Origin: Thiogranum sp.
GTDB taxonomy: Bacteria > Pseudomonadota > Gammaproteobacteria > DSM-19610
Reading direction: 5' to 3'
Assembly: GCA_030148805.1 (NCBI GenBank)
Contig: JASBSS010000002.1
Span: 1-41,044, forward strand
Length of the DNA stretch: 41,044 nt
The number at the start of each line of letters is the position of its first letter. Position 1 is the first letter of the stretch. The notes below the pieces were generated by a model. The model did no database searches, had not been told where the DNA came from, and was given only the letters and a program-made list of their open reading frames with translations. The translations under genes and the position numbers were made by a program. Positions 24,896 to 30,024 of this stretch are shown here, in pieces.

Positions 24896-25284
24896 ACAAG
24901 GGTGAGCGCCAATGAGATACCTGTCTTGGTGCCGCCCACGAGCGCCTGTTTGGCGCTCGCACAGCCTGGATGAATGGGTTAATTAATATATTTAAAATAT
25001 AATCTTATTATAGTTATCTCATGTTGATCCTTTAATCCGACCGTACCCTGAAACGGAAATAGGGACGGAATCTCCTGCTTGAACCCGCATAATGAGCCGG
25101 TCCCTACCAACCGGGGCCGGCAGTGACCGAAGCGTCGGCTGCCGCCTGAGTCGCCACCCGCAGGGCTCGTCTGGGTCGGGAAACAGAAAATAAAACGAGC
25201 CGCAGTGTCCAAACCGGGTTGACCCACGCGTCCCTAAGCTGTCGGTCGCACCGGGCCGGCGCCATTCCAACCAACGGAGGCATC
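24896..25284. other. Intergenic region before the DGPF/ECF sigma operon
   Basis: I see no gene. It contains a perfect eight-base hairpin CGAGCGCC-TGTTT-GGCGCTCG (24939-24959) without T-run, a strongly AT-rich patch at about 24979-25020, and the ribosome binding site ACGGAGG (25274-25280). TGTCCA (25206-25211), 17 bases, CGTC (25229-25232) resembles an ECF-type promoter and may be the autoregulated promoter of the sigma factor operon; this is a low-confidence reading. Confidence 0.45.
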
Positions 25285-25632
25285 ATGTCCAAGCAGCACT
25301 ATTTGTGTATCCAACGCAGCCGACCGGGACAGTGCGGGCCCGGCGAAGACCCCTCTCCCGCGCAGATGGAGGAGATGTACGCCAGGTTCAATGCCTGGAA
25401 GGAGAAGTTCCAGGAGAACATCGTCGACATGGGCGGCAAGCTGGGAGACGGCAAGGTGGTGACCGCCGAGGGCGCGGCGGACGGCCCGTTCGTCGAGGCC
25501 AAGGAGGTGGTCGGCGGTTTCATGATCGTGGCCGCGGCCAGCCTGGAGGAGGCCGTGGAGGTGGCGCGCCAGAGCCCCGGCGTGTGGATGCCCGGGTCCA
25601 GCGTCGAGGTGCGGGAGATCAGCACCCCTTGA
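25285..25632 (+). CDS. DGPF/YCII-related domain protein
   Basis: The 115-residue product carries the YCII-related fold with the DGPF signature: AADGPFVEAKEVVGGFMIVAAASLEEAVEVARQSP (about residues 66-100). DGPF proteins are the usual partner encoded beside group-42 ECF sigma factors, and their precise role in controlling the sigma factor is not settled. ATG 25285 follows ACGGAGG. Its TGA stop overlaps the TTG start of the sigma gene by one dinucleotide step (TTGA), so translation of the two is likely coupled. Confidence 0.9.
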   Translation: MSKQHYLCIQRSRPGQCGPGEDPSPAQMEEMYARFNAWKEKFQENIVDMGGKLGDGKVVTAEGAADGPFVEAKEVVGGFMIVAAASLEEAVEVARQSPGVWMPGSSVEVREISTP

Positions 25633-26867
25633 CGGTCCCCACGCTGGTCGAGCACTTTTTCCGCCACGAATACGCCAGGCTGGTGGCCAGCCTGGCGCGT
25701 CGGGTCGGGGTGCAGCACCTCGAGGCGGTCGAGGACGCCGTCCAGTCCGCTTTGCTGAAAGCGCTCGACACCTGGACGCGCGCGGGGCAGCCGGACAGTC
25801 CGTCGGCCTGGCTGTTTCGCGTGGCGCACAACCAGCTCATGGGGCAATTGCGCCAACAGGCGAACCGCCAACGTCTCCTGGAGCAGCATGCCGAATTCGC
25901 CCCTGATCCGGTGGAGAACGGTCCGCCGTGTTATCTTCCCGGGGAGGTGCGCGACGATCTGCTGCGCATGCTGTTTGTTTGCTGTGACGAGGCGATCCCG
26001 CTGGAATCGCAGGTGGTCTTGGCGCTCAAGACGCTGTGCGGTTTCGGGGTCAGGGAGATCGCGTTGCGTCTTTTCACCAGTGAAGCCAATGTTTACAAAC
26101 GGCTGGGCCGCGCTCACCGCCGATTGCGGCAACAGCCGGCTCGTCTCGGCGAGCTCGGCGGTGAGCACTATGCGGCGCGTTTGACGGCGGTCAACAGGAT
26201 CCTCTATCTGCTTTTCACCGAGGGTTACCTGTCCTGCCACGCGCAGATGGCGATTCGGCGCGAGCTGTGTAACGACGCGATACGGCTGGCAGAGATCCTC
26301 GCCGCGCATCCGGTAGGCCAGTTTCCGGAAACCTATGCACTGTTAGCGCTGATGCATCTGCACAGCGCCCGCCTGCGCGCCCGGCAGGACGCATCGGGTG
26401 GACTGCTATTGTTGGAGGAGCAGGATCGTTCGCTGTGGGATCGGCAAAACATCCGTATCGGGCTGCAGTGGTTGGCCAAATCCGCCCAAGGTGACGGCTT
26501 TTCCCGTTATCACGCCGAGGCTGGAATCGCCGCGGAACATTGTCTCGCCGCCTCGTTCGACGCGACCCGGTGGGACAGGGTGGCGGAGTGTTACCAGTTG
26601 CTGGAGCGGACAACGCCGTCGCCGCTGCACCGGTTGAACCGGGCGGTGGCGATGGCGCAGTGGCGCGGGCCCGAGGCGGGGCTGGCCGTGCTAGCGGATT
26701 TCGCCCCGCCGCCATGGCTGGCCGGCTCCTACCTGTGGACAGCCGTAATGGCCGATCTACATCGGCGCTGCGGGAATCTTCAACAAGCCAGCCGATATCG
26801 GCGCGCCGCGCTCGCAGCGGCGCCCACGCCGGCGGTGAAGGCATTGTTACAGCGGCGCCTGCCGTAG
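25629..26867 (+). CDS. ECF-type RNA polymerase sigma factor with C-terminal extension (ECF42-like)
   Basis: The 412-residue product has sigma region 2 (about 1-70; FFRHEYARLVASLARRVG and DAVQSALLKALDTW), region 4 (about 115-170; LKTLCGFGVREIALRLFTSEANVYKRLGRAHRRLR) and a long C-terminal domain of DUF6596 type with TPR-like helices (about 185-412; LYLLFTEGYLSCHA, ETYALLALMHLHSARLRARQD, SPLHRLNRAVAMAQ). This size and architecture mark the ECF42 group, which pairs with DGPF proteins. I place the start at TTG 25629, overlapping the upstream stop; no ATG or GTG would preserve region 2. The rare start may keep levels low. Confidence 0.88.
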   Translation: MTVPTLVEHFFRHEYARLVASLARRVGVQHLEAVEDAVQSALLKALDTWTRAGQPDSPSAWLFRVAHNQLMGQLRQQANRQRLLEQHAEFAPDPVENGPPCYLPGEVRDDLLRMLFVCCDEAIPLESQVVLALKTLCGFGVREIALRLFTSEANVYKRLGRAHRRLRQQPARLGELGGEHYAARLTAVNRILYLLFTEGYLSCHAQMAIRRELCNDAIRLAEILAAHPVGQFPETYALLALMHLHSARLRARQDASGGLLLLEEQDRSLWDRQNIRIGLQWLAKSAQGDGFSRYHAEAGIAAEHCLAASFDATRWDRVAECYQLLERTTPSPLHRLNRAVAMAQWRGPEAGLAVLADFAPPPWLAGSYLWTAVMADLHRRCGNLQQASRYRRAALAAAPTPAVKALLQRRLP

Positions 26868-28659: not shown

Positions 28660-29304
28660 CTAATGTTCTCCCTTGGTCCGCAACAGGCCGGCGAGCCGGT
28701 TGCCTTGTTTTTGCGGACCGCCGCGCGGGAAGAGGGCGTGCAGGTAGCGGTTGCTGCCGCGCTCTGTCCCCCAGCTGGTGCGGAAGTGCTTGATGATCTC
28801 ACGCACGTTGGCCTGGACCTGGTGGGTTTCGTAGAAGTCGCGCAGAAAACGGATCACCTCCCAGGTCTCGTCGGTCAGCCTCAGGCCTTCGCGCTCGGCC
28901 TGGGCGCGGACGAAAGCCTCGGACCAATCGCCCAGATTCACCAGATAGCCCTCGCTGTCGGTTTCGACCGTGCGCCCGTCCACCTTCAGGGTGAGGATCT
29001 GCATGCCCGGATAGGCAATGCTGCCGCCGTCGCCACCTCCCGGGATGCCGACGTCGCTGACGCTGTCGGCGTCGGTGGGCGACCACAGTTCGATGTTCAC
29101 ATCGCCGCTCAGCCGACCGTGATAGCGGGTCGCGCCGTTGACGACGACTTTACCGCTGGCCGCCGGTATGTCGAACTGCGCAGTACCGCCGCGGTCGGTA
29201 CTGCCCTCGAGCGGGTGATCGGGATCCGTGTCGAGGTAGAGCGTCACCCGAGTGCGCTTTACCGGTTCGTGGGTAAATCTCATCGATACGTGAAGACGCA
29301 GCAT
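28660..29304 (-). CDS. DsrC/TusE-like protein lacking both redox cysteines, with an N-terminal beta-type domain
   Basis: The 214-residue product has two parts. Residues about 107-214 match DsrC/TusE: LKVDGRTVETDSEGYLVNLGDW, LRLTDETWEVIRFLRDFYETHQVQANVREIIKHF, and GSNRYLHALFPRGGPQKQGNRLAGL. In DsrC the end reads KQAC...GLPKPTGC; here the first cysteine is replaced (KQGN) and the tail ends RTKGEH, so neither redox cysteine exists and persulfide transfer is not possible. Residues about 10-80 (VTLYLDTDPDHPLEGSTDRGGTAQFDIP, then VVVNGATRYHGRLSGDVNIELW) look like a small beta-sandwich, followed by a Gly-rich linker (about 85-96). Cysteine-less DsrC homologues have been proposed to be regulatory. 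ATG 29304 follows AAGGGGG; TTG 29310 is an alternative. Confidence 0.88.
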   Translation of the reverse strand: MLRLHVSMRFTHEPVKRTRVTLYLDTDPDHPLEGSTDRGGTAQFDIPAASGKVVVNGATRYHGRLSGDVNIELWSPTDADSVSDVGIPGGGDGGSIAYPGMQILTLKVDGRTVETDSEGYLVNLGDWSEAFVRAQAEREGLRLTDETWEVIRFLRDFYETHQVQANVREIIKHFRTSWGTERGSNRYLHALFPRGGPQKQGNRLAGLLRTKGEH

Positions 29305-29504: not shown

Positions 29505-29532
29505 TGCATTCATAACTTGTGAGGAGGTGGAC

Positions 29533-30024
29533 ATGGATAAAGGACGCGCAAAATGGCTGCTCCCCGCGCTTGCGCTGACGGCCGTGCTGGCCGCGTCGCC
29601 GCTGATTGCCCAGATCAACGTCGACGGTGTCATCAAGTATCGACAGAATGTCATGAAGGCGTTGGCGGGGCATGTCGGCGCCGCCGACCGCCTGGTGCGC
29701 GGGCAGGTGCCGCTGATGGATCAGCTGGAACTGCACGCGCGGGCGGCGCGGGAGATCGCGCACACCCTACCGACGCTGTTCCCCGCCGAAAGCATCCCGC
29801 CGGAGGCGGAATTCAACGGCGCGACCGTCTCCACCGATGCGCTGCAGGCGATCGCCGACAAGCCGCAAGCCTTCAAACAGGCGGCCCAGGACGCGATCGA
29901 GGCGACCGACGCCTTTTTGAAGGTGGTGCAGGCCGGCGATAAAAAAGCACTGCCGGCGGCCTTCAAACGCGTGGGTGAAGCCTGCAAGGCCTGTCACAAG
30001 GATTTCCGCAAGGATCAGGAATAG
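29533..30024 (+). CDS. Cytochrome c' (c-type, single heme)
   Basis: The 163-residue periplasmic product has a signal peptide (WLLPALALTAVLAASPLIA, cleavage about residue 26), a four-helix-bundle-like body, and the heme motif CKACHKDFR near the C-terminus, the hallmark of cytochrome c'. These proteins bind NO and are linked to nitric-oxide resistance and photosynthetic or denitrifying metabolism. I chose ATG 29533, five bases after GAGGAGG; GTG 29527 would overlap that site. A diheme cytochrome gene starts six bases after the stop, so they form an operon. Confidence 0.92.
   Translation: MDKGRAKWLLPALALTAVLAASPLIAQINVDGVIKYRQNVMKALAGHVGAADRLVRGQVPLMDQLELHARAAREIAHTLPTLFPAESIPPEAEFNGATVSTDALQAIADKPQAFKQAAQDAIEATDAFLKVVQAGDKKALPAAFKRVGEACKACHKDFRKDQE

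Follow-up and report, generated by a model that had tools for sequence, protein, structure and literature searches.

Introduction

TusE, a member of the DsrC/TusE superfamily that acts in the tRNA 2-thiouridine relay of E. coli, keeps the penultimate cysteine and is not restricted to genomes with dsrA. A 2014 review of DsrC is said to describe an 'RspA' class of DsrC-like proteins that have lost the redox cysteines and play a regulatory role. For A. vinosum, DsrC is reported to interact with DsrEFH in strict dependence on its Cys111 (PMC3397948, passage concerned), and the role of four further TusE/DsrC/DsvC genes 'remains to be established', in the words of one passage of PMC3368242; a passage of PMC6504805 leaves the extra DsrC copies of Thiohalobacter open as well. 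Phage-encoded DsrC lacking one or both cysteines is described in passages of PMC4164917 and PMC8190135, and with these phage copies (PMC8190135, same passages) Cys-less DsrC-like proteins are already known as a kind.

Here we describe a protein of this superfamily ending in KGEH, encoded in a 41,044-nucleotide stretch of DNA from Thiogranum sp. (hereafter the window). It resembles A. vinosum DsrC (1yx3; PF04358/TIGR03342) in its fold, its family HMM, the length of its arm and the arm residues GP, KQ and G, but differs from it by Asn and Glu in place of the cysteines, an extra Gly before GP, an N-terminal domain and a linkage to N-oxide genes. TusE belongs to the same superfamily, whereas KGEH lacks the penultimate cysteine and is nearly confined to dsrA genomes. 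In the Cys-poor phage DsrC, redox cysteines are likewise missing and any function is putative; KGEH, in contrast, is a bacterial clade with a fixed arm, a nitrate-operon linkage and, in part of its members, a fused domain. KGEH has lost the redox cysteines and may in this respect resemble the RspA class.

The literature searches yielded no protein for cross-talk of the Dsr pathway with nitrate respiration. No DsrC gene in a nitrate-reductase operon and no Cna-B/DsrC fusion appeared among the titles and abstracts listed, and both were absent from the term-searched passages of PMC4164917, PMC13137333, PMC3368242, PMC3397948, PMC6504805, PMC4853749, PMC13047784, PMC11406059, PMC8190135, PMC5701242 and PMC5516251. 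The fixed KGEH arm, the nitrate-operon linkage and the fused domain did not appear in the literature searched, and we class KGEH, within the DsrC superfamily, as neither DsrC nor TusE.

Two-domain organization of the KGEH protein

The features of the gene are listed in Table 1. Its 214-aa product contains no cysteine at all. A TTG two codons 5' of the ATG at 29304 would yield a 216-aa version, but it is the less likely start because the start conserved in relatives is the ATG. The Pfam DsrC family (PF04358) matched residues 108-209 (E 4.9e-32, 111 bits versus a cut-off of 24.9), and NCBIfam TIGR03342 (TusE/DsrC/DsvC) gave 97.4 bits versus 53.5, which passes the threshold of the DsrC/TusE superfamily, while the TusE equivalog PRK11508 remained below its cut-off (93 bits versus 191). 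For residues 1-106, a Pfam search with E up to 10 gave no match, Cna-B and transthyretin HMMs included.

Table 1. Positions of the KGEH gene, its parts and its divergent neighbour in the window.
Feature	Positions	Strand	Remarks
Two-domain KGEH-type DsrC-family protein	28660..29304	minus	214 aa, ATG at 29304, stop at 28660
N-terminal beta-sandwich, residues 1-75	29080..29304	minus	Cna-B/transthyretin-like predicted fold
Gly-rich linker, residues 76-102	28999..29079	minus	pLDDT 69-74 in blocks 71-100
DsrC-fold domain, residues 103-204	28693..28998	minus	Pfam match and predicted fold
Asn202 codon, at inner redox Cys position of DsrC	28699..28701	minus	Alignment
C-terminal arm, residues 205-214 (AGLLRTKGEH)	28663..28692	minus	pLDDT <50 at 211-214
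Glu213 codon, replacing penultimate Cys	28666-28668	minus	Alignment
Cytochrome c' (PF01322), divergent neighbour; context only, not conserved	29527..30024	plus	Gene map

An AlphaFold2 model computed from 71 sequences (mean pLDDT 90.2, pTM 0.87) placed seven strands within residues 2-73 and, after a linker of lower confidence, a DsrC fold in residues 103-204 and a loose tail at 211-214. Its C-terminal domain matched A. vinosum DsrC 1yx3 with a Foldseek E of 1e-9 and a VIA Z of 15.9 (rmsd 2.4, 112 residues). The predicted N-terminal beta-sandwich resembled those of Cna-B/transthyretin-type domains, with VIA Z of 9.0 (3e8v), 8.7 (8bdw) and 8.1 (5aq0) against a typical best background Z of 7-8, so that in the model the likeness would be one of fold only, slightly above background. 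The first-pass annotation, which had proposed a DsrC-like C-terminal half fused to a domain of this pattern, is thereby supported, for the N-terminal part as a predicted fold.

The N-terminal part is kept from residue 1 in relatives with 54-90% overall identity. It is therefore no chance extension, which disposes of the possibility, raised in the first-pass annotation, of a non-conserved frame extension. Given 70 near full-length relatives that align with it, the gene is not a frame artefact, nor is it a copy that has degenerated. Elsewhere in the window, a sigma-70-type factor with a DUF6596 domain adjoins a YCII-domain protein (25305-26867 and 25219-25632).

Replacement of the redox cysteines

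The last 19 residues, GPQKQGNRLAGLLRTKGEH, align gap-free with the canonical GPAKQACKYAGLPKPTGCV, and the two cysteine positions of DsrC therefore correspond to Asn202 and Glu213, as had been noticed in the first-pass annotation. From GP to the C-terminal end, the arm counts 19 residues, exactly as in canonical DsrC. Because a KQGN tail defined the KGEH class and peptide patterns supplied most of its members, the invariance of GGPQKQGN, including Asn at the inner cysteine position in 99/99 rows, is partly built in. The penultimate residue was Glu in all 99 distinct KGEH domains and the last residue His in 97 of them; a GE-type tail was also present in all 21 genomes that were found in a 369-genome sample by a pattern excluding the tail. 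None of the 99 distinct family members, own copy included, has a cysteine in its last 25 residues, and a hidden frameshift whose correction would restore the cysteines, another possibility mentioned in the first-pass annotation, is rejected on this basis.

KGEH rows formed one clade in the 98-row tree (support 100/99), in which no row without KQGN fell inside the KGEH clade. This tree contained every fourth two-domain-labelled row and 12 of the 22 canonical rows, left out the truncated L016, and was drawn from a short alignment of 109 columns for which the bootstrap had not settled. The N-domain-labelled tree described below recovered the same clade with 100/100. KGEH is a distinct DsrC-family clade with both cysteines replaced and the arm length exact and, judging from these residues, it cannot do DsrC-type cysteine chemistry. 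Many residues conserved in canonical DsrC differ in KGEH, and its partner may for that reason differ from that of DsrC.

Distribution and history of the family

In a protein search of 56 related genomes, which used no motif pattern, members of the same genus and family gave full-length copies (60-90% identity), and three genomes (G011, G033 and G053) gave copies of just the DsrC part (60-65% identity). A pattern scan of the species-genome collection yielded 388 stretches, of which 363 were confirmed, the best 80 becoming named loci. Among these best 80 of 363, 71 (L047-L117) were full or near-full length matches, and the two-domain form is thus conserved across genomes. Named carriers in the same best 80 include Thiogranum, Thiohalobacter thiocyanaticus, Thiocapsa, Allochromatium humboldtianum, Thiorhodococcus, Thiocystis, Halochromatium and Thiohalocapsa. 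Thiogranum MAGs are the window's closest named relatives, and its class was accordingly taken as Gammaproteobacteria. Two loci belong to a MAG labelled Desulfobulbaceae, which we suspect to be wrongly binned. L096, which has a partial start, is omitted from A2. The KGEH gene of L085 and that of L098 each have next to them another ORF assigned to the same protein cluster.

A second tree was made with 38 of the 75 two-domain rows, all 24 single-domain rows and 4 outgroup rows, labelled by an N-domain HMM. Single-domain groups were basal and the fusion was nested within them, the supporting fork being weak (82/73). This topology makes a single-domain ancestor probable, with the N-terminal domain fused on later; because of the weak fork, a single gain of this domain followed by losses is put no higher than likely. 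The N-domain HMM matched 99 ORFs in the examined loci, all of them DsrC ORFs; as the loci were chosen around DsrC or nar genes, this says little on other genes. In the own genome, the KGEH gene gave the only clear match, and elsewhere there was just a 40-residue match (E 0.03). A mobile origin was considered and rejected: the plasmid and phage collections returned 15 and 6 records, respectively, none covering 80% of the query, and the annotated records among the matches listed were TusE.

Linkage to nitrate-reductase operons

In addition to what the first-pass annotation reported, Cys-less DsrC also exists without fusion, in nitrate-reductase gene clusters. Among 369 evenly drawn genomes of Gammaproteobacteria, the KGEH motif was found in 21, spread over 15 family-level groups, with an exact DNA pattern that misses variants; 15 of the genes were single-domain. 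Thirteen of these 15 lie behind narGHJI (seven: G053, G102, G225, G236, G335, G352 and G366, the same places being given by the narG search) or behind a nasA-like and/or DmsB-DmsC-like gene (six: G064, G108, G117, G155, G204 and G362). NarI was not called in G225, and a 136-aa ORF separates narGHJI from the KGEH gene in G352. In G204 and G108, no gene but the DmsB-DmsC-like one received a label in the stretch shown, and between it and KGEH lie one small ORF (G204) or two ORFs, one of them on the other strand (G108). Of the two remaining single-domain genes, that of G307 begins at the edge of its contig, next to a PP2C-kinase gene, while G033 has narG, dsrA and KGEH, but the latter without a nar or nas neighbour. 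The nasA-like protein scored below the cut-offs of the formate dehydrogenase and NasC models; it is read as a nitrate reductase because five of these six genomes have NirB ~5-8 kb upstream in the same orientation. The gap to the upstream gene, measured to the longest-ORF start, was 19-111 bp in nine of the 13 cases. In the 15 single-domain genomes, a labelled context gene was present within 1.5 kb in 4/5 KGEH loci versus 0/25 other DsrC loci, 30 loci having been examined for 104 DsrC matches.

With thresholds of E up to 1e-50 for dsrA and up to 1e-150 for narG and nirB, these genes were detected in 118, 62 and 167 of the 369 genomes, respectively. KGEH occurred in 20/84 genomes with dsrA and narG/nirB, 0/34 with dsrA only, 1/105 with narG/nirB only and 0/146 with neither. 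The corresponding tests, whose p-values overstate independence because the genomes are related and are thus indicative only, gave 5.9e-10 (Fisher) for dsrA in 20/21 KGEH genomes versus 98/348 others, 2.9e-7 for KGEH in narG/nirB genomes with versus without dsrA (20/84 versus 1/105), and 7.6e-4 for KGEH in dsrA genomes with versus without narG/nirB (20/84 versus 0/34). Among narG genomes, KGEH was found in 9/28 with dsrA versus 0/34 without. The exact motif was absent from 19/28 narG + dsrA genomes and from 64/84 genomes with dsrA and narG/nirB. The own genome has dsrA; the one KGEH genome without a dsrA match, G204, is 81% complete, and its genus-mate G064 has dsrA. NnrS was present in 17/21 KGEH genomes, counted in KGEH genomes only, with no control set.

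A DsrC-family gene followed narI in 10/26 operons of dsrA+ genomes versus 0/18 of dsrA- genomes (p 0.003, likewise indicative). Of the 19 KGEH-negative narG+dsrA+ genomes, 16 contributed 17 regions to the dsrA+ side of this check, to which G033 and G350 were added, while G020, G212 and G317 were left out (contig ends or fragments); the dsrA- side comprised 19 regions from 18 of the 34 narG+ genomes, in listing order, with L217 truncated. Taken together, KGEH genes are grouped with those of nitrate reductases or of NO/nitrite metabolism and, within this sample, occur almost exclusively where a genome has both dsrAB and a nitrate/nitrite reductase.

Gene neighbourhood of the two-domain form

Cytochrome c' is an NO binder, and HPP-family proteins are nitrite transporters. 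In the window, the KGEH gene is accompanied by genes for cytochrome c' (PF01322), cytochrome c, PsiE, HiPIP, a Crp-type regulator and a FAD protein. A meaning for the cytochrome/HiPIP neighbourhood, which the first-pass annotation had pointed out, was not supported, and this linkage was rejected as a conserved context: the set recurs in only 1/11 related loci (G014), and cytochrome c', cytochrome c, PsiE, HiPIP and Crp occur together in 1/80 named loci (L047, apparently G014's contig), the window's FAD gene in 0/80 (best 80 of 363).

Genes in the loci were called by a codon model. Within 5.2 kb of the KGEH gene, the 71 two-domain loci (best 80 of 363) contained LysR (31), CBS-pair (14), HPP (14), NnrS (11), NsrR-like Rrf2 (5), MoeA (4), MoaB (3), DUF2249 (2), hemerythrin (2), NirB (1), NarK (1) and PP2C-kinase (1). 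At least one N-oxide family was present in 29/71 of these loci, or in 50/71 when LysR and CBS are counted; 21/71, including the locus nearest the window, had none of the labelled families, many loci being cut by contig ends. The LysR gene was on the opposite strand in 31/31 cases, and upstream and divergent in 28. In the gene maps of the class sample, no nitrate-reductase gene was seen beside two-domain genes, and this form is present in genomes without a narG match (G000, G008, G018, G172 and G214). In Desulfovibrio desulfuricans, an HPP gene is among the NO-responsive genes, according to a passage of PMC5701242.

Other DsrC-family members

Also beyond the first-pass annotation, ten DsrC-family matches were found in the own genome (G000, 3.8 Mb), and a further Cys-less type is among them. 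Among the copies read, the canonical two-Cys tail was found only in that of C19. The second Cys-less type (L003; G000:C14:285906-286211, minus) has the tail ...SKQGRKIAGLPQSTRKGGY and lies on the strand opposite dsrA, ~2.5 kb away; rows from G236, G335 and G366 with a tail of this kind group with it in a single clade. In the 98-row tree, the RKGGY Cys-less type is a clade apart from KGEH (100/96), and the tail types WSTG and LMLDV, which keep the inner Cys and have no outer Cys, are one clade each and sisters (99/90). DsrC-family genes of LMLDV or WSTG type follow narI in three more operons (G081, G243 and G264; loci L197, L205 and L206), in dsrA+ genomes with no KGEH there; WSTG directly precedes KGEH in L052 and L054, and in L055 and L157 no more than a few kb separate LMLDV from KGEH. 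A variant of these types is also present at C30:398124 of the own genome. In the seven further DsrC regions of that genome (L029-L035), LysR, HPP, CBS, NnrS and NsrR-like genes were absent; L031 and L033 gave weak Fe-S and sensor/regulator matches.

Tandem ORFs with two DsrC domains were observed in L178, L182, L183, L184 and L186, each half with its own tail, and the ten domains read from them form one tree group (96/89). Frames of 247-261 aa with two DsrC matches occur in G004, G007, G010, G018 and G019.

Possible function

A binding or regulatory role, already favoured by the first-pass annotation, would be the simplest reading of a DsrC fold without redox cysteines. The position of the single-domain genes, seven of 15 behind narGHJI and six behind nasA/dmsBC-like genes, with short gaps in nine of these 13, could also point to an accessory or maturation factor of nitrate reductases, NarJ-like, recruited from DsrC and acting on NarG or NasA. 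NarGHI of dsrA-less genomes needs maturation too, yet the motif is missing from all 34 narG genomes without dsrA, and the five narG-less genomes named above carry the two-domain form; a pure nitrate-reductase accessory is disfavoured because KGEH needs dsrA, and we regard such a factor as doubtful. A purely sulfur-side role is in turn disfavoured by the operon position. The LysR genes near 31 of the 71 two-domain loci, 28 of them divergent, and the NsrR-like genes near five (best 80 of 363) would suit a protein that senses nitrogen-oxide stress or acts as co-regulator of transcription under it, working with a divergent LysR or NsrR-like repressor, and a DNA-binding role of DsrC exists in the literature. 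Against such a co-regulator, which appears unlikely, Pfam gave nothing above cut-off beyond the DsrC domain, and the LysR protein has a DNA-binding domain of its own.

Membership of the same superfamily and the 93 bits given by PRK11508 might suggest a modulator of the TusE/MnmA step in tRNA thiolation, outside the Dsr pathway; KGEH is, however, nearly restricted to dsrA genomes, unlike TusE, and neither tus nor mnmA is present in the annotated neighbour clusters, which leaves this role quite improbable. The loss of both catalytic cysteines in a duplicate-rich family, with ten matches in the own genome, is also what a decaying duplicate without function would look like, but a near-identical new arm in 99 distinct rows and 15 family-level groups of the 369-genome sample contradicts decay, since the arm is conserved, and makes it scarcely credible.

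The reading that we put forward, tentatively and with limited confidence, is that this redox-dead DsrC may dock on a putative partner of DsrC type and tune the flow of sulfur, in whichever direction, during nitrate, nitrite or NO processing. The KGEH protein would be made together with the nitrate/nitrite/NO machinery, and its retained fold and arm would dock on a protein that normally receives DsrC. Candidate partners would be DsrAB with its siroheme channel, then DsrEFH/TusBCD or DsrMKJOP. DsrEFH is disfavoured because its binding to DsrC needs Cys111, leaving DsrAB as the first candidate, which is a guess. An occupied site could result in competition with DsrC or in shielding of the site, and sulfur oxidation would be throttled or protected while nitrate, nitrite or NO is processed. 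In the derived form, the N-terminal sandwich may add a second binding surface.

A bolder version, which we consider rather unlikely as a whole, is a dedicated sulfur-nitrogen switch. The redox-dead DsrC, co-expressed with nitrate-reductase or NO genes, would plug the DsrAB siroheme channel or another DsrC site, and would either keep nitrite and NO out or stop sulfur oxidation during nitrate reduction, the beta-sandwich having been gained as a second interface in purple sulfur bacteria and relatives of Thiogranum. Sediments and oxygen-minimum zones are settings in which the coupling of sulfide oxidation with nitrate reduction is important. With a Cys-less DsrC inside nitrate-reductase operons, the question of cross-talk between the Dsr pathway and nitrate respiration becomes testable with one gene.
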